From assembly GCF_000214215.1 (NCBI RefSeq), contig NC_015559.1, positions 2,777,001 through 2,841,000 of the forward strand: a DNA stretch of 64,000 nt. Reading direction: 5' to 3'. Numbering within the stretch: position 1 is the stretch's first letter; each line of letters starts with the position of its first letter. The translations under genes and the position numbers were made by a program. The stretch comes from Marinomonas posidonica IVIA-Po-181 (GTDB taxonomy: Bacteria; Pseudomonadota; Gammaproteobacteria; Pseudomonadales; Marinomonadaceae). The notes under the pieces were generated by a model. That model made no database searches and had not been told where the DNA came from. It saw only the letters and a list, made by a program, of their open reading frames with translations. Positions 14,369 through 31,810 of the stretch are shown here, piece by piece.

Positions 14369-14382
14369 CTTTGGAGAAGTTA

Positions 14383-16431
14383 ATGACTCAACAGAAAGCC
14401 CTGAAAAAGCTGTTATTACCACTGGTTCTTATGAGTGAAATCGCTATGGCTGATGACAGCTCTGACACGATCAATTTAGACGCCATCATTGTAAGTGCCG
14501 AGTTGCTCGACAAGTCAGCCAAAGAGAGTGCACAAAGTATTGAAATATATGATGAAGACACTCTTAAAAATCAAGCGGGCCTAAACTCTGCCAAAGACAT
14601 TTTAAACACAACATCTAACGTTAATTTAGTAGAAGGTACAGGAACAGCCGCCACAGTACGAGGCATAGACGGTACCGGTGCAGCACAAAATACTATTGCC
14701 ATTTACGCAGGCGGCAGACAAAGACTCAACTACGAAGTAGATGACAGACCTTTGTCTTTTAATGAAGTCGTCTACAGTGACATCAATTTATTTGATGTAG
14801 AAAAGGTCGAGGTACTGCGTGGAGCCCAAAGCACACTATCTGGCCGAAATGCCATGGCAGGGACGATTAACATTAAAACAAAAGACCCTGTATACGAAGA
14901 CGAAACCATACTTCGTGCCGCCGCTGGGAATTATGATGCACAAGAACTGTCCGCAGCCGTTAACAGAGCCATTGGTGATGATGACACCATGGCTTATCGT
15001 TTGTCTGCAGACCTAAAAGACAGAGATTCCACGGTTAAATACGGATCAACAGATAATGTCGATGATGTGAGTCGGTATGAAAGTGTGAACCTCAGAGGTA
15101 AGTTACTGATAGAACCAGATTCAGAAGACAACAAACGATTACTTTTAGGGGTATCTCATACGGACTACGCAGGACCACACCTAGAAACCGTAGCGGCTCC
15201 TTATGAAGACAGAAAAGCCGCTACTTTTGATGGACAGGCTTATCATAATACTATCGCTGACACAGTATCCTTGGATTATTCACAAGACCTCAACTCTGAC
15301 GCGTATTTCCGATTAAATAGCTCACTAACAAACGCAGAGTTTGTTCGGACAACTGCAGACAACGGCACCAATGTCGACATTGACAGCACTGAGATAGTCC
15401 TAGAGCCTCAGCTCCACTATAGCAATGAAACTTTAAGTCTTGTCGCTGGGATCTATTACTACAGCGCAGCAGAAGATGAAGATACCGAATTGTTCTCTAC
15501 CAAATATCGTTATAACGACGATACAGAAGCACTCAGCGCTTATATTGAAGGGGCGTTTAATTTATCAGATAACCTCACTCTATCATTGGGCGGGCGTCAA
15601 GAGCATGAATCAAGAAAACGCGATGGTGGCGTTTACAGTAATGGCGCAACGAGTAACGACTTTGATTACGATGAAAATTATTCACAATTTCTACCTAAAG
15701 TCGGCATCAATTGGCAACAATCTGAAATGATTAGCTGGGGCGCACAAATATCAAAAGGCTACAACGCTGGAGGAGCAGGAATCTATTTTGATAATTCATT
15801 TGCAGTACAGGATTATGATTTCAAAGAAGAAACCTCTTGGACCTATGAAATTTATAGCCGCCAACAGTTTTTACAAGGCAAGCTAAGCAGTAGCCAAAAC
15901 CTTTTCTATTCTCGCTATAAAGACCTACAGCTCGCCTACAGTTCAAGCGGTGATTTCGATAAAGACCTTTCGTATTTAATTGCCAATGTAGACAAGGTAA
16001 ATACTTGGGGCTTTGAGCAAGGCTTAACAGCAATACTGTCAGACGAATTTACTCTATCAGGCAGTTTAGGCTTTCTAAATACTGAGATTGTTGAGTTTTC
16101 TAGCGACACCAGTTTAGAAGGTAATGATCTTGCGATTGCACCTTCAGTTACTTCTAGTATCAGCCTAGATTGGCACAAAGACAATTGGACAACCAACCTA
16201 AACCTTCGTTATTCCGGTGCGTATTACACCTACCCAAATAACGAATCTGCCTCAAAAACAGATGCTTATGTTGTTGCTAATGCAAGAGCTACCTACCAAA
16301 TGGGTGATGCCCAATGGTTCGCAAGCATAGACAACTTATTCGATGAAGACGCCATTATTTATCAACGCTCAACGTCAGCCGTATTGTTACAACCACGTAC
16401 TTTCCTAGTGGGAGTGGAATACGCACTTTAA
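14383..16431 (+). CDS. TonB-dependent outer-membrane ferric-siderophore receptor
   Basis: This 682-residue receptor has a signal peptide (LKKLLLPLVLMSEIAMA), a TonB-box-like DAIIVSA, a plug domain (VEVLRGAQSTLSGRNAMAG, then TINIKTKDP) and a beta-barrel ending PRTFLVGVEYAL. The ATG at 14383 is chosen over the TTG at 14371 because GGAG lies seven bases upstream and the signal peptide then begins MTQQ. It sits immediately downstream of the Fur palindrome and upstream of salicylate synthase, so it should import the iron complex of the siderophore made by this cluster. The closest functional analogue is FptA, on context. Confidence 0.9.
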   Translation: MTQQKALKKLLLPLVLMSEIAMADDSSDTINLDAIIVSAELLDKSAKESAQSIEIYDEDTLKNQAGLNSAKDILNTTSNVNLVEGTGTAATVRGIDGTGAAQNTIAIYAGGRQRLNYEVDDRPLSFNEVVYSDINLFDVEKVEVLRGAQSTLSGRNAMAGTINIKTKDPVYEDETILRAAAGNYDAQELSAAVNRAIGDDDTMAYRLSADLKDRDSTVKYGSTDNVDDVSRYESVNLRGKLLIEPDSEDNKRLLLGVSHTDYAGPHLETVAAPYEDRKAATFDGQAYHNTIADTVSLDYSQDLNSDAYFRLNSSLTNAEFVRTTADNGTNVDIDSTEIVLEPQLHYSNETLSLVAGIYYYSAAEDEDTELFSTKYRYNDDTEALSAYIEGAFNLSDNLTLSLGGRQEHESRKRDGGVYSNGATSNDFDYDENYSQFLPKVGINWQQSEMISWGAQISKGYNAGGAGIYFDNSFAVQDYDFKEETSWTYEIYSRQQFLQGKLSSSQNLFYSRYKDLQLAYSSSGDFDKDLSYLIANVDKVNTWGFEQGLTAILSDEFTLSGSLGFLNTEIVEFSSDTSLEGNDLAIAPSVTSSISLDWHKDNWTTNLNLRYSGAYYTYPNNESASKTDAYVVANARATYQMGDAQWFASIDNLFDEDAIIYQRSTSAVLLQPRTFLVGVEYAL

Positions 16432-16462: not shown

Positions 16463-16510
16463 TGCAAATAACTAGTTTTATCAATGTGTTAAGGAATTCA
16501 GTTATTTGCA
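16463..16510. repeat. 11-base inverted repeat upstream of salicylate synthase
   Basis: TGCAAATAACT at 16463-16473 pairs with AGTTATTTGCA at 16500-16510, separated by 26 bases. It could be a regulator site or an RNA structure in the leader. It overlaps the alternative TTG start at 16506. Confidence 0.6.
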
Positions 16511-16565
16511 TCCTATTGAGCTGACACTTAAATGTTTACCAGACAGTCGAGATGGAGTTTTGAAC

Positions 16566-17900
16566 ATGAGTAATATTGCCCTAGACCTAAATATAACAAG
16601 CTCAAACACAAAAAATGATGTGTTCGAATTAGCCGCTAGATTAGCAAGCAGCAAGCTTTTTGAAGACTATATGATTTATGAAAAAGACGGCGAATGCTGG
16701 TTCGGTGGGGGTATCGAACGGTCGGTGACTTTATATGCAGACCGTTTAGAGTCCAGCTATAAGGGTCAATCATTAGTAGTAGAAGCTACAGATAAAACAC
16801 TATTTGAATTACTCAACACAGAGCTGTCTTCATGGGAAGGTGCCTGGCAAGCAAACGGATGGGCCTGTTTCGAACTGGCATACGCTGTAAATGAACCTAA
16901 TGTTCTCAATGACGATGAGCAAGCCGGAAAAGTCCCCCTACTGTTTTTATCTCAACCTAAAGCGATCGTGTCATTAGGGCAACACACTCCTGAAATACAA
17001 ACTAAAGACGAAAGCCTAAAACAAAAAATCAACGAACTCCTAAATACTCCCAAAGTATCTAACGCCTCAACAAATGGCGTCTCCATTCCAGATAGTGAAG
17101 AATACAAACAATGGGTCAATAACTCATTGACTCAAATAGAAAAAGGCACGTTAGAAAAAGTCATTTTATCAAGAAAACTAAAATTGGACTTTTCACCTGA
17201 CTTTGTTGCTACTTGGTTGCGTGGTCGCAAAGAGAATACACCGGCTCGATCTTTTTCACTGAATTTAGGCGATTGGCAAGCCAGTGGCTTTAGCCCTGAA
17301 CTCGTTATGTCTATTGATAAAAACCGTATTGTCACGACAGAACCTCTTGCCGGAACTCGTCGTAGAGATGGCATTTTTGCAGAAGACATCTCTCGTTTTA
17401 ACGAGCTATACCGAGATCCAAAAGAAACACATGAACACGCCATTTCGGTCTTCTTAGCAACAAATGAGCTAAAAGCGGTCTGCCATGAACCTTCCATTGT
17501 TGTTCGTCGGTTCATGGAGCGAAAGGAAAGAGGATCTGTTCAACATCTTGCATCAACAGTATGTGGTGAATTGAAAGATGGATTGAACCCATGGGATGCA
17601 TTCGCAAGCCTATTCCCTTCTGTTACTGCTTCAGGAATCCCCAAAAAACCTGCCTTTAAAGAAATACGCCGTAATGAAGTTGAAAGTAGAGGCCTGTATG
17701 CGGGAGCCGTTCTTCGTCTCAGCCATGATGGCACCTTCGACGCAGCGCTGGTACTGAGAAGTTTGTTAGGCCATAAGGGCAAATCCTGGTTGCAAGCTGG
17801 CGCGGGCATCGTCAGTAACTCTACTCCTGAGCGAGAGTTAACTGAGACAACGGAGAAACTGAGCAGTGTTGCTCCTTGGGTCATGAAGCAAATGGCATAG
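16566..17900 (+). CDS. Salicylate synthase (Irp9/YbtS/MbtI type, chorismate to salicylate)
   Basis: The 444-residue product matches the MST family, which carries out both isochorismate formation and pyruvate elimination. Diagnostic segments: KVILSRKLKL, TEPLAGTRRRDG, HEHAISVFLA, RKERGSVQHLASTVCG, FPSVTASGIPKKPA, ESRGLYAGAVLRLS and GAGIVSNSTPERELTET. These resemble MbtI/Irp9 more than PchA or EntC, so no separate PchB lyase is needed, and none is present. The ATG at 16566 has GGAG upstream; a TTG at 16506 would add 20 residues with no family counterpart. Salicylate made here should be activated by the ligase at 28729-30399. Confidence 0.88.
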   Translation: MSNIALDLNITSSNTKNDVFELAARLASSKLFEDYMIYEKDGECWFGGGIERSVTLYADRLESSYKGQSLVVEATDKTLFELLNTELSSWEGAWQANGWACFELAYAVNEPNVLNDDEQAGKVPLLFLSQPKAIVSLGQHTPEIQTKDESLKQKINELLNTPKVSNASTNGVSIPDSEEYKQWVNNSLTQIEKGTLEKVILSRKLKLDFSPDFVATWLRGRKENTPARSFSLNLGDWQASGFSPELVMSIDKNRIVTTEPLAGTRRRDGIFAEDISRFNELYRDPKETHEHAISVFLATNELKAVCHEPSIVVRRFMERKERGSVQHLASTVCGELKDGLNPWDAFASLFPSVTASGIPKKPAFKEIRRNEVESRGLYAGAVLRLSHDGTFDAALVLRSLLGHKGKSWLQAGAGIVSNSTPERELTETTEKLSSVAPWVMKQMA

Positions 17901-17965: not shown

Positions 17966-19273
17966 GTGCAATACTCAAACACACCAGAATTTTTTGATTT
18001 GATTGGGGTCGGATGTGGCCCATCTAACCTAGCTTTAGCCATCGCATTAGACGAACAAAAACAAAACCTAAACACTGTATTTTTAGAGAAACAAGCGGAC
18101 TACAGCTGGCATGGCAATACCATTACAGGTAATAGCTATTTACAAATTTCATTTCTTAAAGACCTTGTCTCCTTTCGTAATCCAATGAGCTATTACAGCT
18201 TTATTAACTATTTAAAAGTACACAACCGTTTACACGATTTTATTAACCTTGGCACCTTTTACCCTAGCCGATTAGAGTTTAATGACTACTTACGCTGGGT
18301 CGCTAAACAGTTTTCTCATCAATGCCAATACGATGCTGAAGTGATTGCGATTGAACCGATCAAAACACGCGATACTGTCACTTCATTGAATGTACTTTCT
18401 CGTGATCATGATGGAAAAGAAACCTCTCGCATCACTCGCTCACTGGTCATTGGCACAGGCGGAAAACCTTACATTCCAGAACCTTTTAAAGCCTTAAAAA
18501 CCGACTCACGCGTTTTTCACCACTCTACTTATTTAAAATCTGTAAACCTTATTACCTGTAACACAGAGAAAAGAGTGGCCATTGTCGGTGGAGGACAAAG
18601 TGCGGCAGAAGCATTCTTAGATATTTACGAGAATGATCCATCTATAAAAATTGATTTGATCGTCAGAGGCTCATCATTGAAGCCTTCAGACTCAAGCCCT
18701 TTTGTAAATGAGATATTCGCGCCGAAAGCAACAGATGCCATGTTCAACATGACAAACCATAGCCGCGCCGAAACGCTAAAAGAGTATCATCACACAAATT
18801 ACGCTGCGATCGATTTGCCAATGATCGAACAGATATACAGCATTTTATACAAACAAAAAATCACCGGCGATATTCGCTACAGATTTTTGCCTAATACGAA
18901 CGTTGAAGCCTCTAGCACTCAAGAAAACGGTATTTCACTAAAAATCATCAACTCATCTAATGGTTCATCCGAAACCAATGTTTATGATCAGGTCATTTTG
19001 GCTACGGGTTACGAGCGAAATACACACCGTGAGCTGCTTTCCTCTATATCTGATTATACAAAAGATTTTGAAGCCGACAGAGACTACCGACTACTGTCTG
19101 ACCCGCGTCTACAAACGCCTATTTATCTACAGGGGTATTGTGAACACAGTCATGGGATTAGTGACACCTTACTTTCCATACTGGCAACACGATCGGGAGA
19201 GATCACCACGTCTCTATACAAGGCCCTAAATTCAACTAATAAGAAAAAAGAAGTGTCTAGCGCTCTTATCTGA
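17966..19273 (+). CDS. Flavin-dependent amine N-hydroxylase (SidA/PvdA/IucD family)
   Basis: The 435-residue enzyme has the FAD motif GVGCGPSNLALAIAL (about residue 12), the family block QISFLKDLVSFRNP followed by FINLGTFYPSRLEFNDYLRW, an NADPH motif IVGGGQSAAEAFLDI (about 206) and ATGYERN near the end. Family members hydroxylate the side-chain nitrogen of ornithine (PvdA), lysine (IucD) or histamine (BasC). Sequence style is close to PvdA, but substrate is not decidable by eye. It starts with GTG and has AAGGGA upstream. The hydroxylated nitrogen would give the siderophore a hydroxamate-type iron ligand. There is no acyl- or formyltransferase partner and no histidine decarboxylase in the cluster. 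Confidence 0.88.
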   Translation: MQYSNTPEFFDLIGVGCGPSNLALAIALDEQKQNLNTVFLEKQADYSWHGNTITGNSYLQISFLKDLVSFRNPMSYYSFINYLKVHNRLHDFINLGTFYPSRLEFNDYLRWVAKQFSHQCQYDAEVIAIEPIKTRDTVTSLNVLSRDHDGKETSRITRSLVIGTGGKPYIPEPFKALKTDSRVFHHSTYLKSVNLITCNTEKRVAIVGGGQSAAEAFLDIYENDPSIKIDLIVRGSSLKPSDSSPFVNEIFAPKATDAMFNMTNHSRAETLKEYHHTNYAAIDLPMIEQIYSILYKQKITGDIRYRFLPNTNVEASSTQENGISLKIINSSNGSSETNVYDQVILATGYERNTHRELLSSISDYTKDFEADRDYRLLSDPRLQTPIYLQGYCEHSHGISDTLLSILATRSGEITTSLYKALNSTNKKKEVSSALI

Positions 19274-19382: not shown

Positions 19383-22300
19383 ATGACAATGAATATCGCA
19401 CAAAAGCAATTACTGCTAAAACGGTTAGCTAAATCACGCGGCTTAGAGGTATCCACTCATATAGAAGATCCTTCTAGCAACATACCGCCTTTAGAAAATA
19501 CGCTTTCAGTGCCTCTTTCTCACGCCCAAGAAAGAATGTGGTTTCTTCATCAATTAGACCCAAGCTCATCGGCCTACAATGTATGCGTTCTTTGGCACTT
19601 AAAAGGGCCGCTAGACTACAAAGCACTTAAAGAAAGCGCTGTTCGAATTACCATGCAGCACAGTATTTTTAGAACGCTTTACTATACAAATGACGAGGGT
19701 AACTCTAGACAAAAAATAGTGTCAAGCTTACCGCCTGAATGGCACACACAAGATCTGAGAAAGTATGAGAAAAAAGAGCAAAATGAAAAGCTCAATGCGA
19801 TTGCTCAAAAAGCCAGCACAGACCCTTTTGATTTAACCCAAAAGAGTGGATTACGCTTAATACTAGCCACTCTCGATGATGATTACCATGTGTTGGTTAT
19901 GATCGGCCAGCATATTTCATGGGACGGCCCGTCATTCGGCATTTTTTCCAATGAACTTGCCCGTGGCTATAACTTATACCTAAAAAACGACACATCTAAT
20001 CAGTCATCGACACCATTACAATACGTAGATTTTGCTGACTGGCACCGTAAGCAATGGCAAACTGACACAGAAAAACGCGAAACGGCCCTAGCCTTCTGGC
20101 AAAAAGAGCTTTCACCATTACCCGAGAAGCTAGACTTCCCTACTGACTTTGTTCGCACAGCAGGGAATGATGAGTCTGGTGGCTGGTGCAGCACAGATTT
20201 AGACAAAACCACAACGGCCTCTTTGCAGAAACTGTGCGCCGAAGAGCAGGTTACCCCTTTCGAAATTTTAATCACCACGATCGCTATTCTTATCACTCGC
20301 CTAGCACGGGCCTCTGAAATAACAATTGGCACCGTTGCCTCTCACCGCAATATGCCAGAGCTCAATGATGTCATCGGCAACTTTGGTAACGTGGTTCCTA
20401 TTCGTTTAAAAGTATCGCCAAGCTTTAGTTTTCGTCAGCAATTACAACAATGCGCCAAAGTCTGTCGCGTGGCCTTTTCAAACTCAGACATTCCATTTGA
20501 ACATTTATTAGAACGACTGGATATAACCCGTGGAGAATCCTCTAATCCTTTATTAGATACCATGGTGACCTTCTTAGCCCACGGTATGAATCCACCTGAA
20601 ATGGATGGCTTAAATGTAGAATGGCGCAAGCACTTCAATGGTACAACTCAGACCGATTTATCCTTCGACGCCTTATTGCAAAACGACTGCTTACAGATAC
20701 AAGCCACATGGAGAAAGTCTCTTTTCCACGCCAACACCATACCAAAGCATTTGCAACGTTTAGCAAATTTACTAGGTACATTTGCTAACGCCCCTGATCA
20801 GATTATCGCCGCTGAAAGTCTATTACTCAAAGAAGAATACAGTCAACTTGTTGACTCATGGGGACACCGCCCAGCGCTCTCGAAAAAAGCGCCAACCGTC
20901 ATTGATTGGTTTGAAAACATAGTCAATGAAAAACCAAAAGACATTGCGGTTTATCAAACTCGCGCACTAAAAAAGCATGATAAAAAAGACGCTACCCAAC
21001 CCGAAGAAAAATTGGATTTTGAAACCTTAAATGCTCGAGCAAACGCCTTGGCTCGCTGGCTCATCAAACAAAATATCGGACCAGAAAAACAAATCGCTAT
21101 TTGCTTACCTCGAGAAAAAGAATGGTTTGTTGCCATGCTAGCCATCTTAAAAGCAGGTGCTTCTTTTATCCCTATTGATCCAAATTACCCAAGCGATTAC
21201 ATAGACAGAGTGGTTCGCCTTGCTGAGCCATACTTCATCTTTATTAATAAACAAGCATCGACTGAAAGCTCTTTGACAGGCGCAATCACACAGCAAAGTG
21301 GCAAACTTGTCGACCTTCATACTGCCGAAACGGCCGCAATGGAAGGAGGTTTATCTAACACCAACGTATCGGACAATGATCGTCTCGAAAAACTGTTACC
21401 AGAACACCCTGTGTATACGGTCTTCACTTCTGGTTCCAGCGGTCAACCCAAAGGGGTTGTCATCCCTCATTCAGCCTTAGCCAATTTACTTAGCAGTCAT
21501 AAAAAAGACCTTTATGAAGCAGCCATAAAGCGCACAGGTCGAAGCACCCTACGAATAGGCCACGCATGGTCATTGGCTTTCGATGCCTCTTGGCAGCCTA
21601 ATTTATGGATGTTTGAAGGTCATGAATTGCACTTATTTGATACCGATGTTATGCAAGATCCTATTGCTCTGGCTCAAGAAATCATTCAACGTAAACTGGA
21701 TTTTATCGAGCTAACACCAGGCATGTTAGACGAAGTTCTGCCTTGGTTGGAGTCAGGGGTTACCTTGCCAAGTGGCGAATACCTAGCAGGGCATATCCCA
21801 GCCTTGCTTGGCTTTGGTGGCGAAGCGGTCAAAGCCCAACTTTGGCAAAAAATGATCGACCTAGAACAGACCACTGGCTTCAACCTGTATGGGCCAACTG
21901 AAACCACAGTCGACTCCATGATTGCCCGTGCAGAAGCAAATAAATCCCCAAGCATTGGTATGCCAATATGGGGCGCGCACGCTTATGTTCTAGACAAATG
22001 TATGCAACTCGCACCACCTGGCATTCCAGGTGAGCTGGCTATCTCAGGAGAAGGACTAGCAAGAGGTTACCTTGGTCGTGGTGACCTTACCGCCAGCCAT
22101 TTTGTCGCAAACCCTTACGGCCTGCCTAGCTCAAGACTATATCGCACTGGTGACCGAGTCCGTTGGTTGCGAGATGGCATGATGGAATACATTGGACGTA
22201 TTGACGAGCAGATTAAGATTCGGGGGTTCCGTGTAGAACCATTAGAAGTAGAAGCCTCTGTCGAAAGGATTATCCAATTACCTTGTGCAATCGTCGTCAA

Positions 22301-24773
22301 AAATCACAACAACAAGGTACAACTACTGTGCTTTTATGAGCTAGGCAATCAAGCTGATGAGGCAGACATTTCCCGATCTCTGAAAAACAAATGTGCTCAC
22401 TCCCTACCAGATCATCTAATGCCTAAACATTTCATGGGAGTTGAGAAATTACCACGTTTGCCAAATGGCAAAATTAATCGTCGTTCTTTGCCCGATATCA
22501 CCTTATCAGATAGCAATATTGGACGAGAGCCAAGCACAGAATTGGAACATACTTTATGTGCTCTTTTTGCTGATGTATTGGGTCTTAAGAAAATAGAAAT
22601 TGATGACAGCTTTTTCGAATTAGGCGGGGACAGTATTTCCGTTATCCGACTCGTAAGTTTGGCTCGTCGGGAAAACATATTGTTGTCAGCAAGACAAGTT
22701 TTCACAGCCCGTAGCGTGGCAAAAATTGCCCTTGAATTGGAACAAAGCGGCACAGCCAATACAACCAAGCCTAAAACCCCAGATCAGGCCTCAAACAACA
22801 AAAACTGTAAGGCCAACCAGTTAGCAAGGCAAATGGGCTTACCACTTCATAGCTTACTGCCTGTACTTCTCGCCACAGCAGGCGTTGGTACAGGGCTTAT
22901 TGCCACCAATAAACAAGGCAATGTTAACCTGAAAATCCAGCAAACAAAGTGCCTTTCTACGCAAAACGATCAAGCGCTATCTATTATGCTATCTAAGCTC
23001 GGAACTGAGTTGACACACAGCAAACAACTTAGTGCGCAAATTAGAGGTTGGTGCTGGCAAATTGCTCATTCAGAATCCGCTATCAACCTTGAAGATCAAG
23101 CGGTTATTCACACAATAAATCATCAGCAAAAGCATGATTTAGAGTTTCGTTTCCTTCACACCTTCGCCACAGCCGATGCAGCAGAAACAGAACTCAACCA
23201 ACAAGTAAGCACTGACACCAACAACGCACTGGTCAGTGTTTTTGCTTACCACCTGCAAGAAGATCCAGAGCAGAAATTGCGTTTTGCGGTATTCACAGAA
23301 TCCTCAAAAATAAGCGACTCAGCACTTAACAAACTGCTTGCAGAGTACCGAAGAGTCATCCAATTGTTGTCAACAGCATCGGATCTAGAAGCCTCTTTAA
23401 CCGACTTATTGCCAGCAAATTCAAGCACCAAAATCACTACCCCCTTACAACGGAAGATGGTTCTAAACTGCGATGATGAAAATGACCCTTGGACCATTCA
23501 ATTAGAGCTGACACTCACATCATCGTTAGACCCTAAGCATGTTGAAACTACCCTAAAGCGCAATACCCATCATTTATTAAATAAACATGACGTATTGCGT
23601 TCTGGTTATTTCAATAATGGCGAGCAAACCTTTATAGCAGAAAACTTACAGCCTGATTGGCAGTATGAAGACTGGAGCCACTTAGCAAAAGCGGATCAAA
23701 ACAAACAAATCAATGAGTTCAGAGAAAAATGGGAATCTTACAGGTTCACACTCCACCAGCCACCACTAATTCGGTTCATGTTAATTCGTTTAACAGACGA
23801 TCATTTAACAGACGATCATTTAACAGACAATGAATGGCTACTCTTCATTAACTCCCATCATTTGTTATTGGATGGTTGGTCAACACCACGCCTGTTACAC
23901 GAGCTACTTAATAACGCAGATGATATTGATACACAAGTCACACCTACATTGGCTTGGGCGGATTATTTAAGCTGGTTACAAGAACAAGATAAAAGCCAAT
24001 CTTGGTTGTACTGGAATCGTGAACTAGACAGCATAAAAACACCCTCAGTCATTGCACCAGAACGCAAAAGCCGTACGCCAACACAAGACATATCGGAAGT
24101 ATTAAGCTCATCAAAAAATACTTCATTGATCGCAACGGCCAATAGAATAAACACACCTCAAGCGGCACTTTTCCAGCTCGCTTGGGCTCGAACTATCTCC
24201 ACCTCTTTAGCCCAAAAAGACGTTGTCTTTGGCTTGTTTGACTCAGGCAGAGCCTTAAACCTAGATGGCATAGAATCACTCATCGGCATGCTTGTACAAA
24301 TTGTTCCTATACGGATTAACACAGCCGATCAAACACCGATAAGCGAACAGTTAAAAGAGCTACAAACAAAAAAGTTTGAGTGGCAATCATTGGCACCGAT
24401 TCATCTTGACCACCTTGCGGCAACAGAAAAACACGGGGAGGTTTTTGATACCTTGCTAGTGATAGAAAACGCACTAGAAGGCGATGTAGAAATAACGCGA
24501 GCCTCTCCAAACGCAAAACAGCAGACAACAACCGTTGCCAACATCACCAACCAACGCTGGCGTGACTCGATTGCCCAAAGTCTTGGATTGTTTGTCTACC
24601 CCGGCAAAGAGCTAACTCTTCGCCTGTGTTATGACCCAATTGCGCTGAGCCACCAATTTGCGCAAGAAATATTGCTCAGCTTTAAAACACATTTGAGTGA
24701 CATAACACAGGAAATAAACGCAGAGACAACATCAAAAGATGAGTCCACAACACCTCAAATGACCACACCATGA
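19383..24773 (+). CDS. Non-ribosomal peptide synthetase, C-A-T-(half C)-C
   Basis: The 1796-residue synthetase has a condensation domain (about 30-450) whose active site reads QHISWDG in place of HHxxxDG. An adenylation domain (about 500-1020) follows, with core YTVFTSGSSGQPKG near 677 and NLYGPTETT. A carrier domain has its phosphopantetheine serine in LGGDSIS near 1083. Residues 1130-1350 look like the second half of a decayed condensation or epimerisation domain (QLARQMGLPLHSLL). A full C-terminal condensation domain starts at TPLQRKM (1353), with intact HHLLLDG near 1492. There is no thioesterase. I read the pocket as D-A-Q-E-L-F-L-V-D-K; its acidic residues fit a basic side chain, perhaps ornithine, lysine or an N-hydroxy form. 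Confidence 0.9.
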   Translation: MTMNIAQKQLLLKRLAKSRGLEVSTHIEDPSSNIPPLENTLSVPLSHAQERMWFLHQLDPSSSAYNVCVLWHLKGPLDYKALKESAVRITMQHSIFRTLYYTNDEGNSRQKIVSSLPPEWHTQDLRKYEKKEQNEKLNAIAQKASTDPFDLTQKSGLRLILATLDDDYHVLVMIGQHISWDGPSFGIFSNELARGYNLYLKNDTSNQSSTPLQYVDFADWHRKQWQTDTEKRETALAFWQKELSPLPEKLDFPTDFVRTAGNDESGGWCSTDLDKTTTASLQKLCAEEQVTPFEILITTIAILITRLARASEITIGTVASHRNMPELNDVIGNFGNVVPIRLKVSPSFSFRQQLQQCAKVCRVAFSNSDIPFEHLLERLDITRGESSNPLLDTMVTFLAHGMNPPEMDGLNVEWRKHFNGTTQTDLSFDALLQNDCLQIQATWRKSLFHANTIPKHLQRLANLLGTFANAPDQIIAAESLLLKEEYSQLVDSWGHRPALSKKAPTVIDWFENIVNEKPKDIAVYQTRALKKHDKKDATQPEEKLDFETLNARANALARWLIKQNIGPEKQIAICLPREKEWFVAMLAILKAGASFIPIDPNYPSDYIDRVVRLAEPYFIFINKQASTESSLTGAITQQSGKLVDLHTAETAAMEGGLSNTNVSDNDRLEKLLPEHPVYTVFTSGSSGQPKGVVIPHSALANLLSSHKKDLYEAAIKRTGRSTLRIGHAWSLAFDASWQPNLWMFEGHELHLFDTDVMQDPIALAQEIIQRKLDFIELTPGMLDEVLPWLESGVTLPSGEYLAGHIPALLGFGGEAVKAQLWQKMIDLEQTTGFNLYGPTETTVDSMIARAEANKSPSIGMPIWGAHAYVLDKCMQLAPPGIPGELAISGEGLARGYLGRGDLTASHFVANPYGLPSSRLYRTGDRVRWLRDGMMEYIGRIDEQIKIRGFRVEPLEVEASVERIIQLPCAIVVKNHNNKVQLLCFYELGNQADEADISRSLKNKCAHSLPDHLMPKHFMGVEKLPRLPNGKINRRSLPDITLSDSNIGREPSTELEHTLCALFADVLGLKKIEIDDSFFELGGDSISVIRLVSLARRENILLSARQVFTARSVAKIALELEQSGTANTTKPKTPDQASNNKNCKANQLARQMGLPLHSLLPVLLATAGVGTGLIATNKQGNVNLKIQQTKCLSTQNDQALSIMLSKLGTELTHSKQLSAQIRGWCWQIAHSESAINLEDQAVIHTINHQQKHDLEFRFLHTFATADAAETELNQQVSTDTNNALVSVFAYHLQEDPEQKLRFAVFTESSKISDSALNKLLAEYRRVIQLLSTASDLEASLTDLLPANSSTKITTPLQRKMVLNCDDENDPWTIQLELTLTSSLDPKHVETTLKRNTHHLLNKHDVLRSGYFNNGEQTFIAENLQPDWQYEDWSHLAKADQNKQINEFREKWESYRFTLHQPPLIRFMLIRLTDDHLTDDHLTDNEWLLFINSHHLLLDGWSTPRLLHELLNNADDIDTQVTPTLAWADYLSWLQEQDKSQSWLYWNRELDSIKTPSVIAPERKSRTPTQDISEVLSSSKNTSLIATANRINTPQAALFQLAWARTISTSLAQKDVVFGLFDSGRALNLDGIESLIGMLVQIVPIRINTADQTPISEQLKELQTKKFEWQSLAPIHLDHLAATEKHGEVFDTLLVIENALEGDVEITRASPNAKQQTTTVANITNQRWRDSIAQSLGLFVYPGKELTLRLCYDPIALSHQFAQEILLSFKTHLSDITQEINAETTSKDESTTPQMTTP
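23790..23832 (+). repeat. In-frame 15-base tandem repeat inside the NRPS
   Basis: TTTAACAGACGATCA occurs at 23790-23804 and 23805-23819 and partly at 23820-23832. It encodes LTDDH, LTDDH and LTDN just ahead of the HHLLLDG motif of the terminal condensation domain. Confidence 0.9.
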
Positions 24774-24789
24774 TCACGGAGAAATTAAC

Positions 24790-25002
24790 ATGAGTGACAG
24801 TATTTTTGACGATGAGTCGATTTTATTTTTAATTCTAATAAATGCTCAAAAACAGTATTCGATCTGGCCAAATATTCTCCCAATTCCTGATGGTTGGCTG
24901 GCTGATAATGGCCCTATGTCTCGCAAAAAATGCATGGACTGGCTCGAAGCCAATTGGACCGATTTACGCCCTATTCAATCTCAACAAGAGCAAGCTGTCT
25001 GA
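24790..25002 (+). CDS. MbtH-like NRPS chaperone
   Basis: This small protein (70 residues) has the MbtH pattern: QKQYSIWPN, P.GW (PIPDGWLAD), a CMDWLEANWTDLRP end and the conserved tryptophans. MbtH proteins bind adenylation domains and raise their activity or solubility. A GGAG ribosome site lies just before the ATG. It falls between the large NRPS and the stand-alone threonine adenylation enzyme and overlaps the latter by one base (TGATG), so it probably partners one or both. The N terminus (DDESILFLILINAQ) is slightly unusual in having LILI where relatives are more polar. Confidence 0.92.
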   Translation: MSDSIFDDESILFLILINAQKQYSIWPNILPIPDGWLADNGPMSRKKCMDWLEANWTDLRPIQSQQEQAV

Positions 25003-26723
25003 TGGATCAATTAATCACCCCTAACCAATCAGGGGACACACTTCATGACCGTTTTGAACAACAAGTACAGATTTGGCCCGATAAAATAGCGGTGAGTTAC
25101 CAAGATCAACAACTCACCTATCAACAGCTAGATGTATTAGCAAAAGCACACAGTGAAGAGCTTATCAGCCGTGGGGTTCAGTCGGGCGATATGGTGGCCG
25201 TCATGCTTTCAAGAAGTGTCGACCTTATTGTACACATTATTGCTGTCTTGAAGACTGGCGCTTGCTATGTCCCTATTGACCCTAATTACCCTGCAGATCG
25301 AGTGGAATGGGTTATAGAAACCAGCACCCCTGTCTGTTTCATTAGCCGCCGTGAGTTGTGCCAGAACATATGGCCTGAGCAACTTCCTTCGCAGCTAAAA
25401 GAACGCTTTTATTTCATTGAATCGGCTCCTCAAGTCAATGTAAACAATAGCCAAGCATCGACTGATACACCTTCACATCAAGAGACAGAAAATAACCAGC
25501 ACTCAGACCTTGCTTATGTGATTTTTACATCAGGTTCCACAGGGAAACCCAAAGGCGTCATGGTTGGCCACAGTCAGGTCATTAGCTTGCTAGATGCAGT
25601 CACCCCCATGTTAGCCAACGACCATAATGATGTGTGGACACTGTTTCACTCCTTTGCCTTTGATTTCTCAGTCTGGGAAATATGGGGGGCACTCACTACT
25701 GGTGCGCGCCTATGCATTGTTCCTCAGGAATCCACATGGTCAGCAGATGCTTTCTTAGAATTATTAAAGCAAGAACAAGTCACCATTCTGAATCAAACCC
25801 CTTCTGCTTTTTACGCATTGACTGCTGCAGTCAATGAGGCACATACCAAAACAGGAGCAAGACAAACACTGTCATTACGCAGTGTGATCTTTGGTGGTGA
25901 AGCGCTCAACCTAAACAAACTGAATGCATGGTGGAAACATTACCCAGAAGGCAAACCACGATTAATCAACATGTATGGCATTACAGAAACCACTGTACAT
26001 GTCACTTGGTTAGAGCTTTCTAAAACTCTCTTTAATAATGATTCAAGCCCTATTGGCCATGCGCTCACAGGCCTGCAAGTTCACCTGCTCAATGAAAAGT
26101 TAGAGCCAGTCAATGAAGGTGAAGTGGGCGAAATGTTTGTCAGTGGAAAGCAATTGGCGATCGGCTATTTGAAGCAAGCGGGATTATCTGCAAGTCGCTT
26201 TGTCGCTAGCCCTTTCCATAAGAGCCAACGCTTGTATCGCTCGGGTGATCTGGCCATGTGGCAAGATGGGCAACTTTATTATCAAGGGCGAGCAGATCGA
26301 CAATTAAAAATCCGAGGTTTTCGTATTGAACCCGGTGAAATTGAGTCGGCTATGGAGTCACACCCTGTCGTACAAAATTGTGCTGTTATACCAAAGCCTG
26401 AAAAAGATGGCTCATCACCAAAAAGCTTGATCGCATTTTTGATTGCCACAAAAGACTCTCACACTGAAATGAATTCAAAAGACACGCTCTCAGCGCTTAG
26501 GGATCACGCAATAAGCCTGCTGCCAGCACACTATATTCCGACCGAATATGTCTTTGTTTCCTCTTACCCACTTACCGTCAATGGCAAGCTTGATCAGGCC
26601 GCCCTGTTAGAAATCTGGCAACAAAAATCAAACGTCCCAACCGCTCATGATAATCGTATGGCACTTCTTCAAAAGAAGTTAGCCAAACTCCAAAAAAACT
26701 ACGCTCAAAAGGAGATAGAGTAA
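25002..26723 (+). CDS. Stand-alone L-threonine adenylation enzyme (NRPS A domain)
   Basis: The roughly 573-residue enzyme has only an adenylation domain: core YVIFTSGSTGKPKGVM, NMYGITETTVHVT, YRSGDLAMW, GRADRQLKIRGFRIEPGEIE and the A10 lysine in VNGKLDQ. The specificity residues read D-F-W-N-I-G-M-V-H-K, from FDFSVWEIW, LNQTPSAFY, VIFGGEAL and MYGITETTVH. This is the classic threonine code. The ATG at 25002 overlaps the MbtH stop; a frame from 24930 lies inside that gene. It must load threonine in trans onto a separate carrier, most likely the second carrier of the next protein, whose cyclization domain would make a methyloxazoline. Its stop overlaps the next start by one base. Confidence 0.9.
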   Translation: MDQLITPNQSGDTLHDRFEQQVQIWPDKIAVSYQDQQLTYQQLDVLAKAHSEELISRGVQSGDMVAVMLSRSVDLIVHIIAVLKTGACYVPIDPNYPADRVEWVIETSTPVCFISRRELCQNIWPEQLPSQLKERFYFIESAPQVNVNNSQASTDTPSHQETENNQHSDLAYVIFTSGSTGKPKGVMVGHSQVISLLDAVTPMLANDHNDVWTLFHSFAFDFSVWEIWGALTTGARLCIVPQESTWSADAFLELLKQEQVTILNQTPSAFYALTAAVNEAHTKTGARQTLSLRSVIFGGEALNLNKLNAWWKHYPEGKPRLINMYGITETTVHVTWLELSKTLFNNDSSPIGHALTGLQVHLLNEKLEPVNEGEVGEMFVSGKQLAIGYLKQAGLSASRFVASPFHKSQRLYRSGDLAMWQDGQLYYQGRADRQLKIRGFRIEPGEIESAMESHPVVQNCAVIPKPEKDGSSPKSLIAFLIATKDSHTEMNSKDTLSALRDHAISLLPAHYIPTEYVFVSSYPLTVNGKLDQAALLEIWQQKSNVPTAHDNRMALLQKKLAKLQKNYAQKEIE

Positions 26724-28732
26724 TGTCTGATTCCCAAACAATATTGCATGAAATTACGGCGCTTTTAGCACAAAAAATCAATGTAAATGCAGACAGCATT
26801 TCCCCTAATGACAACCTTTACGCATTAGGACTAGATTCAATCACCCTAATGGGGATTGTGGCTCACTGGCGTGCGCAAGGCTATCTAGTAAATTTCACCG
26901 CTTTGTCATCCAAACCATGCGTGAATGACTGGGTTAATATATTAGCTAATGCCAAACACCCTGAGCACGCTTCTGCTCCTCAAGCCACACAGAAAATCGC
27001 TTCAACACCAACCGAAAAAGCATTTCCACTTGCCCCAATGCAACAAGCCTACTGGTTAGGTCGCAACCCTGAACAACCTCTTGGTGGCGTCTCTGCGCAT
27101 TTATATACCGAGTTTGAAAGCGACAACCAGATCGTCCCAGAAACCCTTGAAAAAGCTTTAAATAAATTAGCTGAACGTCATTCTTCTCTCAGGTTAATAG
27201 TGACCCGAGATGGTCAACAAATTCACAAATTAAGTGAAAACAGCACACCTATTCCTCTAGTGATTAATGACTTACGTGAAAAAGACGCTACCACAATTGA
27301 ACAAACACTAGAAAATACACGTCAGCTGCTTTCATCACAGATGCTCGATATTGAAAATGGTGAAGTGCTTGCCATTGCCTTAAGCCAATTACCCAATGGT
27401 GGCAGCCGATTGCACCTAGATGTGGATATGGTGGCCGCTGATGCCGTGAGTTACCGAGTACTGCTACGTGAACTTGCCATGCTCTATCAAAACCCAGAAA
27501 TCGAACTTGCTGAACTACCTATGAGCTTCAGTGATTGCCGTCACAATATAGAACAGAACTATTCAGACGTGAAAAAGCGCTCTGGTGAATGGTGGAATAA
27601 TCGTCTTCACCAAATGCCTGAAGGCCCAAAACTTCCGTTAAAAACCAGCCTATTCGAAACAAAGAATACTCAGCCACATACCACAAGACGTCACTTTTAT
27701 TTTGATTCCACACTGCGTGATCAGCTTTATCAAGTATGTCGTGAACACAACCTTACACCGGCTACTGTCTTAGCAACGGTGTTAGCAGAAACACTTGCCG
27801 GCTGGAGCAGTAACTCACACTTCCTTATTAATGTGCCTTTATTCCTTCGCCCAATCGATGGACCTGATCTATCAGGCGTTGTCGGTGATTTTAGCAGTTC
27901 AATCATGCTTGAAGTGAATTTAAGCGAAGTAGAGACATTCCTTGACCGTGCCAAAACAATCCAATCACAACTACATGAAGACGCCTCCTATGCGGACTAT
28001 AACGGCGTTCAAGTATTACGTGATATTGGCCGCTTAAAAGGCCATCAAGTTACCGCCCCCATCGTCTTTACCAGTGCTTTAAACCTTGGAGAACTATTTG
28101 AACCTGTCGTACGAGACGTCTTTGGCGACCCAATATGGATCATCTCTCAAGGCCCTCAAGTATTACTGGATACCCAAATAACCGAACTGGATGGTGGCTT
28201 ACTGCTCAACTGGGACTGTCGAGAAGACATGTTTATTGATGGTGTCTTGGATGCCATGTTTGAATTTTTCCATACCTCTGTTCTTGCCCTTGCTAATAAA
28301 GCTGACACTTGGTCTCAGTGCCTATCCGATAATTTACCGAGCGAGAGAATACAAGCCGAAACAAGCAACAACGAAACGTTAGCACCTGAACAAGAAGCTG
28401 TTTTACCAACCACCACAACAGAAAAAGCGGTTGCCTCAATCTGGTCAGAAACCATTGGCTCTAAAACAGATGACATCAACCTCAATTTGTTTGCCTCTGG
28501 TGGTGACTCCGTTTTAGCCACAACGCTAGTAGCCAAACTAAGAGAGGTTTTTGGCGTCGACTCCATTGACCTTAAAGCCCTGTTTAACGCCCCAAGCATT
28601 GCTGGTGCAGTTAGCTCTATCATTGCTACATGTGGCGATGAAATGGTGAATGAAATCGCGACTTTCTATTGCGAAATCATTGAGTTAGATGATGAAAGTA
28701 TCAAAGCAGAATTAGAAGGCACTGTATTATGA
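26723..28732 (+). CDS. NRPS: aryl/peptidyl carrier, heterocyclization domain, peptidyl carrier
   Basis: The 669-residue protein has an N-terminal carrier (serine in LGLDSIT near residue 40, aryl-carrier style). A heterocyclization domain follows, with PMQQAYWLGRN and LGGVSAH near 110-130 and the cyclization motif D-x4-D-x2-S as DMVAADAVS near 235-243, replacing HHxxxDG. A C-terminal carrier has its serine in SGGDSVLATT near 596. No adenylation domain is present, matching the free-standing ligases on both sides. Predicted work: salicyl on carrier 1, threonine on carrier 2, condensation and cyclodehydration to salicyl-methyloxazoline, passed to the large NRPS. The layout resembles pieces of the pseudomonine and acinetobactin systems. 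Confidence 0.9.
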   Translation: MSDSQTILHEITALLAQKINVNADSISPNDNLYALGLDSITLMGIVAHWRAQGYLVNFTALSSKPCVNDWVNILANAKHPEHASAPQATQKIASTPTEKAFPLAPMQQAYWLGRNPEQPLGGVSAHLYTEFESDNQIVPETLEKALNKLAERHSSLRLIVTRDGQQIHKLSENSTPIPLVINDLREKDATTIEQTLENTRQLLSSQMLDIENGEVLAIALSQLPNGGSRLHLDVDMVAADAVSYRVLLRELAMLYQNPEIELAELPMSFSDCRHNIEQNYSDVKKRSGEWWNNRLHQMPEGPKLPLKTSLFETKNTQPHTTRRHFYFDSTLRDQLYQVCREHNLTPATVLATVLAETLAGWSSNSHFLINVPLFLRPIDGPDLSGVVGDFSSSIMLEVNLSEVETFLDRAKTIQSQLHEDASYADYNGVQVLRDIGRLKGHQVTAPIVFTSALNLGELFEPVVRDVFGDPIWIISQGPQVLLDTQITELDGGLLLNWDCREDMFIDGVLDAMFEFFHTSVLALANKADTWSQCLSDNLPSERIQAETSNNETLAPEQEAVLPTTTTEKAVASIWSETIGSKTDDINLNLFASGGDSVLATTLVAKLREVFGVDSIDLKALFNAPSIAGAVSSIIATCGDEMVNEIATFYCEIIELDDESIKAELEGTVL

Positions 28733-30399
28733 ATGCGGCATTCGATGGACTTACTCCGTGGCCAGAAGAATTGGCAGAAACCTATTGCAAAGGCGGTTAT
28801 TGGCAAAACCAAAACCTAGCCAGCTGGTTTGCTGAGAAAGTCTCTAATAAAGAAAACATTGTTCTCAGTGGACTGGGGATAGATGGTAAGCCTCAGGACC
28901 TCACAGGGAAAGAATTACACCTTTGCGTGCAGGAACTTGCGCAAGGCTTGGCGAAACTAGACATTCAACCAAGTGAGAAAGTGGTATTACAAATGGGTAA
29001 TACCAATAGCTTTGTTATTACCTTGTTTGCACTGTTTGAACTAGGTGCTATTCCAGTGATGGCACTGCCTGGCCATAGGTATAGAGAAATAGAACATTTC
29101 CTTAACCTAACCAAGGCTCGTACATGGATTGCAGGAGACATTGAAGAAAACTCTCCTATTCCAGACTTGGCCGTTAAGCTAAAAGAAGGTGTACCTAGCT
29201 TACAAAATATCATTCTTGATAAACAAGATACTGGCTCGTTTCACTCATTAGGGTCCTTACTAAAAAAAGGGAATAAAAAGTTTGAAAGCACCAATCTCGG
29301 TCATGCAACTGACCCAGCTGGAATAGCTGTATTGTTATGCTCAGGTGGCACAACTGGATTACCTAAGCTGATTCCTCGAACGCATCGTGATTATCTATTC
29401 AATGCAAAAGCCAGCGCTGAAGTATGTGAATTAGATGAAAATGATGGCTATTTAGTCGCATTACCAGCAGGACACAACTTCCCATTGGCTTGCCCGGGGA
29501 TTTTAGGCGCCTTCGAACAAGGTGCTAAAGTGGTTATGTGCCCTTCTCCTAGCCCAGACATTGCCTACCAATGGATCACAGATACCAATGCCACTGTTAC
29601 CGCCCTCGTCCCTCCCCTAGTTCGAGTATGGCTACAAAATGCTGAGCTTGGCTTTAAAGCCCCAAGCACATTGAGAATGCTGCAAGTAGGTGGATCACGC
29701 CTAGATGCAGATTTAGCCCAATGTATTCCGAATAAGTTAAGCTGCAAATTACAGCAAGTATTCGGCATGGCCGAAGGCCTATTAAACTTCACTCGCAGTA
29801 AAGACCCAGACCTTTTGGTACAAAAAACACAAGGTCGACCTTTGTCTGAGCTGGATGAAATTCGAATAGTTGATAGCCAAGGACAAGACGTACCCAATGG
29901 CCAACGAGGCGAACTTTGGACAAGAGGCCCTTACACTTTAAGAGGTTATTACAAGGACCCAAAAGCAAATGATTCTTCATTTTCGGCAGATGGTTATTAC
30001 AAATCAGGCGACCTTGTCCGCCGTTTAAGTTCTGGTCACCTTATTGTTGAGGGACGTATAAAAGAAGTCATTCGTAGAGGCGCAGAGACCATACCAGCAG
30101 AATCTCTCGAGACGCACTTAAGCCTACATTCAGAGATTCAAGCCGCCGCGGTGATTGGACTACCTTGCGAACGTTTAGGACAGCAAGTATGCGCTGTACT
30201 GGTTAACAAAGAAGAGACAGATCTAACACTGACGCTAAATGAAGTCCGTCATTTCTTAATTGAAGAAGGCGTTGCGCATTTTATGCTGCCCGATTCAATC
30301 GAATATGTGCCTGAACTTCCTCTTACTGCTGTAGGTAAAGTGGCCTACCAACAATTGATCTCAAAATTTTCTCCCCCTTCACCTGAGACCACATATTAA
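28729..30399 (+). CDS. Salicylate-AMP ligase (PchD/YbtE/MbtA type)
   Basis: The 556-residue ligase has core LCSGGTTGLPKLIPRTHRDY (about residue 203), QVFGMAEGLLNFT, and a final lysine in LTAVGKVAY. Its pocket reads N-F-C-A-Q-G-V-L-N-K: N, F and C from HNFPLACPG, L and N from GLLNFT. Dihydroxybenzoate enzymes such as DhbE and EntE carry Y, S and V at the second, third and eighth places; F, C and L mark salicylate activators. This agrees with the salicylate synthase in the same operon. It overlaps the previous gene by four bases (ATGA) and should load the N-terminal carrier of that protein. Confidence 0.9.
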   Translation: MNAAFDGLTPWPEELAETYCKGGYWQNQNLASWFAEKVSNKENIVLSGLGIDGKPQDLTGKELHLCVQELAQGLAKLDIQPSEKVVLQMGNTNSFVITLFALFELGAIPVMALPGHRYREIEHFLNLTKARTWIAGDIEENSPIPDLAVKLKEGVPSLQNIILDKQDTGSFHSLGSLLKKGNKKFESTNLGHATDPAGIAVLLCSGGTTGLPKLIPRTHRDYLFNAKASAEVCELDENDGYLVALPAGHNFPLACPGILGAFEQGAKVVMCPSPSPDIAYQWITDTNATVTALVPPLVRVWLQNAELGFKAPSTLRMLQVGGSRLDADLAQCIPNKLSCKLQQVFGMAEGLLNFTRSKDPDLLVQKTQGRPLSELDEIRIVDSQGQDVPNGQRGELWTRGPYTLRGYYKDPKANDSSFSADGYYKSGDLVRRLSSGHLIVEGRIKEVIRRGAETIPAESLETHLSLHSEIQAAAVIGLPCERLGQQVCAVLVNKEETDLTLTLNEVRHFLIEEGVAHFMLPDSIEYVPELPLTAVGKVAYQQLISKFSPPSPETTY

Positions 30400-30413: not shown

Positions 30414-31247
30414 ATGACAAATGACACTTTCAGCAAGTCGTTCACCCAAACTAAGGACTCTAAAGTTACTCAGCCAGAATGGTCAGCAAGCGAATATGAA
30501 GAAGGCAATGAAGGGCAATTCCAAGCGGCTTGTCATGCCATGGAATCCATTAATGCTTGGAATACCAGAGACAAAGGCTATGCCGCCGATATTGGTTGTG
30601 GCAGTGGTCGATTAGTGGAAGCACTGGCTCGTAAAGGAGGTTGGCAAGTCGATGCAAAAGATGTGTCCCAATCTATGATCGATGCCGTTATAAAACGCTG
30701 TGAAGGTTTACCCGTTACCGCCAGTGTGTGTGACGCCAGTGATCTATCATTGGAAAAAAATAAGTACGCGCTTGTGTCTAGTTGCTGGATGTTGCATTGG
30801 CTTAAAAACGCAACCAACACATTAGAGCAAATGGTCAACGCACTTACCCCATCTGGCAACTTAGTACTGCAATGGAGTTGTGGACAACCTAGATCCGAAG
30901 GGTTTCTGTTACGAGACACACTGCAAGAAGTTTTCGACCGTCCTAAATGGATCGAACGACTAAAATCCGCGCCGCTGGCAATGTATCACCATCCAATAGA
31001 AGAAATGAGTAGCCTGCTTGAGAGTATGGGGCTAGAAATCGTTTCTACCCGCGAAAATATTCTTATCAGTGGCGGTGAAAATATTGCCGGCCTAAAACGC
31101 TCACTACGTTCCGCTGCCTTTGCCGCGCAAACCGTTGTATTGGGTGACGATGTAGATGAACTGATCGATGAAAGTTTGTACTTATTAAACGCACGAAATG
31201 CGCTGCGTATCTCAAACACGGAAATCATTGCTCGAAAACCTGACTAA
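30414..31247 (+). CDS. Class I SAM-dependent methyltransferase (siderophore tailoring, predicted)
   Basis: The 277-residue protein has the SAM-binding motif ADIGCGSGRLVEALA (about residue 57), an acidic strand end (DAKDVSQSMID) and the LHWLKN segment of BioC/ubiquinone-type methyltransferases. It lies 14 bases after the salicylate ligase with AAGGA before the ATG, so it is co-transcribed. A role in methylating the siderophore (oxygen, nitrogen or oxazoline side) is inferred from position only. A BioC function is unlikely because no biotin genes are near. The C-terminal 60 residues are helix-rich without a known motif. Confidence 0.82.
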   Translation: MTNDTFSKSFTQTKDSKVTQPEWSASEYEEGNEGQFQAACHAMESINAWNTRDKGYAADIGCGSGRLVEALARKGGWQVDAKDVSQSMIDAVIKRCEGLPVTASVCDASDLSLEKNKYALVSSCWMLHWLKNATNTLEQMVNALTPSGNLVLQWSCGQPRSEGFLLRDTLQEVFDRPKWIERLKSAPLAMYHHPIEEMSSLLESMGLEIVSTRENILISGGENIAGLKRSLRSAAFAAQTVVLGDDVDELIDESLYLLNARNALRISNTEIIARKPD

Positions 31248-31316: not shown

Positions 31317-31339
31317 AACGTTAACTTATGGAGATACTT

Positions 31340-31810
31340 ATGAGCTTATTAGCCCATGAAACCAAACACTGTCCCCTAATGCTCGCTATCGCTAAAGGCA
31401 AGCCAACTATGGAACAACATTTAGAGTCATTAACCCATTGGGATAATTGGTTTGCCGATGAAAAACCCATTCATGTAATACGTTTTTTTGATGATGCTGA
31501 CTCCCTTCATCCGCCTTCAGGTGCAGGCAAAGAGACCAAGAAATGGATGAATGAAGGCGCCGACAATAAATTCCGCGCCTTTATAAAACATATGATGATT
31601 GTTGTGCCAGAAGACCAATATGAACGTATGAAAAATATGAGTGTCACAAAAGTGTTTGGCATCCCTGGAGGCATATTCCCTTCCACCGATGACGCGTTCG
31701 AATGGTTAGCTCAGCAGGCTGACACAGATATTTTTGACCATGATGATGCTTGGCGAAATGACATAAAAGAAACAATCAGAGCACACCTTGTAGAAGAACT
31801 ACCAAAGTAA
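31340..31810 (+). CDS. Unknown 156-residue protein in the siderophore operon
   Basis: I do not recognise this family. The product is soluble, starts MSLLAHETKHCPLML, and is mixed charged and aromatic. Notable parts are HWDNWFADEKPIHVIRFFDD, a GAGKETKKW segment (not a true P-loop), MMIVVPEDQYERM and KVFGIPGGIFPS. There is no signal peptide or membrane span. The ATG at 31340 has GGAG six bases upstream; an ATG at 31328 would add four residues. It lies between the methyltransferase and the transporter, so a role in siderophore assembly, release or iron removal is plausible. A distant STAS/SpoIIAA-like fold is possible but not supported by a motif. Confidence 0.8.
   Translation: MSLLAHETKHCPLMLAIAKGKPTMEQHLESLTHWDNWFADEKPIHVIRFFDDADSLHPPSGAGKETKKWMNEGADNKFRAFIKHMMIVVPEDQYERMKNMSVTKVFGIPGGIFPSTDDAFEWLAQQADTDIFDHDDAWRNDIKETIRAHLVEELPK

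Follow-up and report, generated by a model that had tools for sequence, protein, structure and literature searches.

A terminal condensation domain behind a half-deleted epimerization domain as proposed release domain of a thioesterase-less siderophore synthetase in Marinomonas

The window analyzed here, a stretch of 64,000 nucleotides from Marinomonas posidonica IVIA-Po-181, contains a siderophore cluster whose NRPS ends in a condensation (C) domain, and the question is how the finished product leaves this enzyme. A sequence-only reading had claimed that the cluster holds no thioesterase (TE) or reductase and that the NRPS ends with an intact C domain carrying HHLLLDG. Both points held, as neither TE nor reductase domains were found in the cluster proteins scanned, the motif lies at nucleotides 23856-23876, and Pfam placed no domain C-terminal to the second C domain of the 1796-aa protein. 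The extent given for that domain, 23437-24773, was otherwise right but its start was off-frame by one base. The same reading had raised two release options, an external N-hydroxy amine and a cyclizing N-hydroxyornithine side chain, but had overlooked both a deleted epimerization (E) domain before the terminal C domain and an MbtH gene. The features of the cluster are as follows.

13354-14271, minus strand: AraC-type regulator
14371-16431, plus strand: TonB-dependent siderophore receptor
16506-17900, plus strand: salicylate synthase (TIGR03494, 383 bits against a cut-off of 325)
17966-19273, plus strand: L-ornithine N5-monooxygenase of PvdA type, by similarity (490 bits to PvdA 3s5w; PF13434)
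19383-24773, plus strand: NRPS, C-A-T-[E remnant]-C, 1796 aa (ORF, Pfam, orthologues)
19509-20852, plus strand: C1 domain, LCL-type (Pfam; placed among LCL domains by the tree)
20967-22502, plus strand: A domain, code DAQELFLVD(K)
22551-22730, plus strand: T (peptidyl carrier) domain
22755-23417, plus strand: E domain remnant (alignment to the intact Pseudoalteromonas E domain; dN/dS; pLDDT)
23418-24692 (about), plus strand: terminal C domain, the proposed release domain
23856-23876, plus strand: HHLLLDG catalytic motif, residues 1492-1498, the second His being residue 1493
24790-25002, plus strand: MbtH-like protein (PF03621)
24930-26723, plus strand: stand-alone A domain with Thr-type specificity residues (code DFWNIGMVHK, by eye from the A4/A5 motifs)
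26723-28732, plus strand: ArCP-Cy-T protein (Pfam; aryl carrier GLDSI, heterocyclization domain DMVAADAVS, PCP GGDS)
28729-30399, plus strand: salicylate (aryl)-AMP ligase, a member of the DHB-AMP ligase family (TIGR02275, 532 bits, below the equivalog cut-off of 724)
30414-31247, plus strand: SAM methyltransferase, role unassigned
31328-31810, plus strand: 160-aa protein with no assigned family, beside siderophore receptors
31848-33047, plus strand: RhtX/FptX-like MFS siderophore transporter (TIGR02718, 133 bits, below the cut-off)

The NRPS reads C-A-T-[about 220 aa]-C; Pfam matched Condensation in two stretches, and AMP-binding and PP-binding once each. A tail of about 26 residues closes the protein after the terminal C domain. 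The MbtH gene sits between the NRPS gene and the stand-alone A gene, whose start is probably 25002 rather than 24930. Together with the salicylate synthase, the salicylate-AMP ligase, the ArCP-Cy-T protein, the Thr-type A domain and the PvdA-type hydroxylase, this gene set predicts a small mixed-ligand siderophore, putatively salicyl-methyloxazoline-N5-hydroxyornithine. It was noted that the methyltransferase is present in the Marinomonas clusters, and that no counterpart was found in the Pseudoalteromonas cluster described below.

We examined the N-hydroxylase for evidence on the releasing nucleophile. It scored 490 bits to PvdA compared to 160 for the next, amine-type enzymes, and only 191 bits against the histamine N-monooxygenase model, whose cut-off is 700; by similarity it would be an ornithine N5-monooxygenase. 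A genome-wide search for decarboxylases of the PF00282 family found none, which makes N-hydroxyhistamine supplied by the acinetobactin route unlikely. The suggestion that an N-hydroxy amine releases the chain in the acinetobactin or anguibactin style is thus disfavored, and we dropped it as the leading model. A domain scan of the cluster proteins revealed no N-acyltransferase or N-formyltransferase, and with a PvdA-like hydroxylase the hydroxamate would therefore be made most simply by lactam closure. The other option, cyclization of the N-hydroxyornithine side chain, gained support from the hydroxylase type, from the missing acyl- and formyltransferases, from the relatives of the A domain, and from the precedent of kasichelin A of Streptomyces sp. 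K17/9, which comes from a TE-less C-A-T-E line and ends in an N-OH-Orn lactam; how kasichelins are released is speculative according to their authors (PMC12305651).

The A-domain code is identical in the Pseudoalteromonas orthologue. Among the fetched loci, the nearest relatives of the A domain lay in protein-terminal C-A-T-E modules, 45-59% identical over the specificity region and mostly sharing the motif FDASWQPxLW, in actinobacterial siderophore clusters of Streptomyces, the Rhodococcus group, Millisia and Paractinoplanes. Two of the Streptomyces loci (L043, L064) encode SalS and SalL; some 11 kb downstream lies a PvdA homologue that, judged by contig number and position, is very probably on the same contig. 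From these relationships, the substrate of the NRPS A domain is probably N5-hydroxy-ornithine. Of the elements expected of a kasichelin-type line, the cluster has a salicylate synthase, an aryl-AMP ligase, a Cy domain and a Thr-type A domain, as well as an L-Orn N5-hydroxylase without an N5-acyltransferase. A terminal C-A-T-E module with an active E domain was not found in Marinomonas, where the E N-lobe is deleted.

This deletion was recognized by comparison with orthologues. The megaplasmid of Pseudoalteromonas sp. Bsw20308 (L032) encodes a PvdA-type oxygenase, salicylate synthase, a 2068-aa NRPS, MbtH, A, T-Cy-T and AMP ligase, an architecture conserved at 37-44% identity, and the NRPS of Marinomonas transparens (L037, G035) is 91% identical to that of the window. 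In the Pseudoalteromonas NRPS, a full E domain (INHLVIDASSW, LERHGRE, DLSRTIGWF, FNFLG) stands between the T domain and the C domain; only there is the E domain upstream of the terminal C domain intact. In the window and in M. transparens, alignment to this domain showed that the N-lobe, and with it the HHxxxD motif, is absent, and that the leftover residues, about 220, correspond to the C-lobe, in which the remaining E motifs are eroded. The alignment thus shows that Marinomonas lost the catalytic half of the E domain, which Pseudoalteromonas keeps.

Between the two Marinomonas species, dN/dS was 0.37 for the E remnant compared to 0.17 for the terminal C domain, 0.15 for C1 and 0.11 for the A domain, with a bootstrap probability of 0.02 for the remnant being no looser than the terminal C domain. 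By this measure, constraint on the remnant is about two-fold looser than on the terminal C domain, where purifying selection persists. AF2 gave a pLDDT below 50 over the first half of the remnant, a value that is weak alone since the input alignment is partly misaligned there. When searched alone in 369 genomes of the class, the remnant matched only in the source genome.

The orthologue set is small, comprising two Marinomonas species and one Pseudoalteromonas. A scan of genome contigs returned M. transparens as the sole orthologue, the other 78 loci being C domains at 25-32% identity, and a terminal-C profile run across the class revealed no further orthologue, its one other genome match being a 4396-aa multimodular NRPS.

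The terminal C domain carries the HHxxxDG motif and the C fold of PF00668, and an alignment of 58 rows shows no variation in the HHxxxDGWS columns. Its reading frame is no chance ORF, given an AF2 pLDDT of about 90 over most of the domain, Foldseek top matches to solved C domains (SrfA-C, PvdL E2-C3, tyrocidine synthetase) and the dN/dS of 0.17. By sequence, its best solved matches were the C domains of McyB, BacC, SrfA-C and PvdL; elongation C domains matched at 1e-27 to 1e-32 compared to a marginal 0.003 for the amide synthase VibH. In the best tree, it fell within the clade holding all 45 sampled DCL (C-after-E) domains (SH-aLRT 99), with an AU test not rejecting an LCL grouping (p = 0.36); it is of the elongation type and may belong to the DCL subtype. 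Marinomonas and Pseudoalteromonas both retain HHLLLDGWS and SGR, while near the active site they share changes at positions that do not vary among 56 elongating DCL domains, including TVSGRP to FDSGRA, INTLP to VQxVP, FENYP to IENAL, and Y to Q in the THYP segment. Such altered surroundings are what a C domain no longer serving an acceptor carrier might look like.

There are three carrier domains in the whole cluster, and because all of them would be needed for salicylate, threonine and OH-Orn, no acceptor carrier is left for the terminal C domain. In the route we propose, salicylate would load onto the ArCP of the 26723-28732 protein, and Cy would join it with threonine and cyclize the pair to salicyl-methyloxazoline on the PCP of the same protein. 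C1, whose donor we infer to be this thioester, would transfer the salicyl-methyloxazoline to N5-hydroxy-ornithine bound to the T domain of the NRPS. The terminal C domain, presumably descended from an after-E condensation domain, would then bind the acyl thioester as donor and promote attack by the substrate's own N5-hydroxylamine, and the N-hydroxyornithine lactam would be freed. The predicted product is salicyl-methyloxazolinyl-cyclo-N5-OH-Orn, C16H19N3O5, with an expected [M+H]+ of 334.140, or 14.016 more should the methyltransferase modify it. By our own arithmetic, the same formula is obtained when the linker residue is subtracted from kasichelin A (C20H26N4O6). In Pseudoalteromonas, the E domain would make a D-residue before release; in Marinomonas, where the catalytic half of that domain is gone, an L-lactam would therefore be expected.

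Release through the terminal C domain, which had been proposed as the likely release step, appears to be the best-supported reading of the sequence, and we consider lactam closure by this domain, with slightly more confidence than doubt, to be the explanation. A more specific history is put forward tentatively, as possible rather than probable: an elongation-type, probably DCL, C domain may have been repurposed in marine Gammaproteobacteria as an N-OH-Orn lactam-closing offloader, and in Marinomonas it may have outlived the half-deletion of the E domain and would so act on an L-substrate.

A serious alternative is that the terminal C domain has no part in the chemistry. N5-hydroxy-ornithyl thioesters may cyclize spontaneously, and a thioesterase or hydrolase could also act in trans, leaving the terminal C domain as a gatekeeper, as a structural element, or as a domain bereft of its acceptor module. 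The same lactam comes from TE-less C-A-T-E lines without a terminal C domain, which is thus not required (PMC12305651, PMC7413640), and trans hydrolases have been assigned for amychelin, cahuitamycin and kineochelin (PMC12305651, PMC4757757, PMC13238742). VibF C1 is a C domain that is catalytically silent yet dimerizing (PMC5577590). Outside the cluster, PF00975 matched the terminal part of a second NRPS in the genome as well as stand-alone alpha/beta-hydrolase-type proteins (two above the cut-off, three below), and stand-alone proteins such as those at 2026950 and 1159426 could act in trans. However, every catalytic residue of the terminal C domain is kept, its low dN/dS persists while the adjoining E domain decays, the domain is retained in two genera, and neither the Marinomonas nor the Pseudoalteromonas cluster has a linked hydrolase. 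We regard this account as somewhat unlikely.

The second NRPS (L127:3844-17538) is a 2864-aa protein of two modules that includes an E domain and ends in a TE, neighbored by MbtH, enterochelin-esterase-type and TonB receptor genes. Its product is probably a catecholate siderophore, and many members of the genus carry NRPSs similar to it.

The terminal C domain could instead take a free small amine or hydroxylamine, such as a polyamine or free N5-hydroxy-ornithine, in the manner of VibF C2 or BasB. C domains that accept free amines are well established (PMC5577590, PMC12005286), and the residues by the active site of the terminal C domain depart from those of carrier-accepting C domains. Nevertheless, such an acceptor has no genetic support in a genome without PF00282 (with pyruvoyl-type and polyamine pathways outside the search), the hydroxylase is of PvdA rather than amine type, and the domain lies far nearer to elongation C domains than to VibH; we consider this account quite improbable. 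Very improbable, finally, is a single module split over the NRPS, the stand-alone A domain and the first carrier of the T-Cy-T protein and elongating with threonine, which would fit the gene order (NRPS, MbtH, A, T-Cy-T) and the protein-end C domains that elsewhere precede split modules, but is disfavored by the carrier count and by the aryl-carrier motif GLDSI of that first carrier, the sole remaining cluster site for salicylate, and would leave C1 without a donor.

We also considered whether the 160-aa protein could be an unrecognized release enzyme. Searches of Pfam and NCBIfam found no match to it, and PDB none that was convincing. In L035, L036 and L032 (39% identity), its homologues adjoin ORFs of receptor size or annotated TonB receptors. 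One Marinomonas genome (G034, L035:12612-17892) keeps AraC-, receptor- and MFS-sized ORFs and the 160-aa gene in the same neighborhood but has no biosynthetic genes there, with a 136-aa methyltransferase fragment remaining (L035:15754-16089). This locus suggests that synthesis was lost and uptake kept, and the strain is likely a siderophore 'cheater'. Because the protein adjoins receptor-sized ORFs in genomes without biosynthetic genes, a release function is disfavored, and its role is probably in uptake. In another genome (G183, L029:143-598), a homologue at 54% identity has an in-frame TAG.

Returning to lactam closure by the terminal C domain, release from TE-less N-hydroxy-lactam siderophore lines is stated to be unsolved for the kasichelins (PMC12305651), and a search of the literature on Marinomonas siderophores and on bacterial terminal-C lactam release found nothing direct. 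The compact three-carrier system exposes one candidate release domain, and the natural pair of a C-A-T-E-C enzyme from Pseudoalteromonas and its C-A-T-(half E)-C counterpart from Marinomonas would make stereocontrol and release separable. Because the mass of the predicted product is defined, the claim can be checked by LC-MS. TE-less N-hydroxy-lactam siderophore lines are already known, and a terminal C domain in such a line is the variant here; what appears new, from the protein comparisons, is the C-A-T-E-C orthologue of Pseudoalteromonas set against the half-lost E domain of Marinomonas.

Among known systems, erythrochelin EtcD has a bacterial terminal C domain for which cyclization has been proposed as the release step of an OH-Orn siderophore. 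The ring made by EtcD is a diketopiperazine, formed with a free alpha-amine, whereas the N-terminus of the Marinomonas product is predicted to be capped by salicyl-oxazoline. VibF C2 of vibriobactin is similarly a C-terminal C domain without a TE and with a methyloxazoline donor (PMC5577590), but its acceptor is a soluble polyamine, and no such pathway is indicated in Marinomonas. The acinetobactin and pseudomonine systems share the phenolate- or catecholate-methyloxazoline, and BasB, an NRPS T-C protein, releases through its C domain (PMC12005286), a role that is only proposed here; there, N-hydroxyhistamine acts on the oxazoline directly, while Marinomonas has an extra C-A-T, an Orn-type hydroxylase and no PF00282. 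Nocobactin is likewise a phenolate-oxazoline siderophore without a TE, its NbtE ending in C-A-T-E with a cyclic N-hydroxy lactam (PMC7413640); however, the lactam is a lysine caprolactam, the assembly line is longer, and it has no terminal C domain. Kasichelin shares the phenolate-methyloxazoline, the TE-less line and the C-terminal N-OH-Orn lactam that is predicted here (PMC12305651), and its cluster also contains a methyltransferase without an assigned role, kasB, like that at 30414-31247. The kas line differs in an extra beta-aminoisobutyrate/beta-Ala module, the Marinomonas cluster having no linker residue, and in ending at the E domain, whereas in Marinomonas a C domain follows the deleted E domain.
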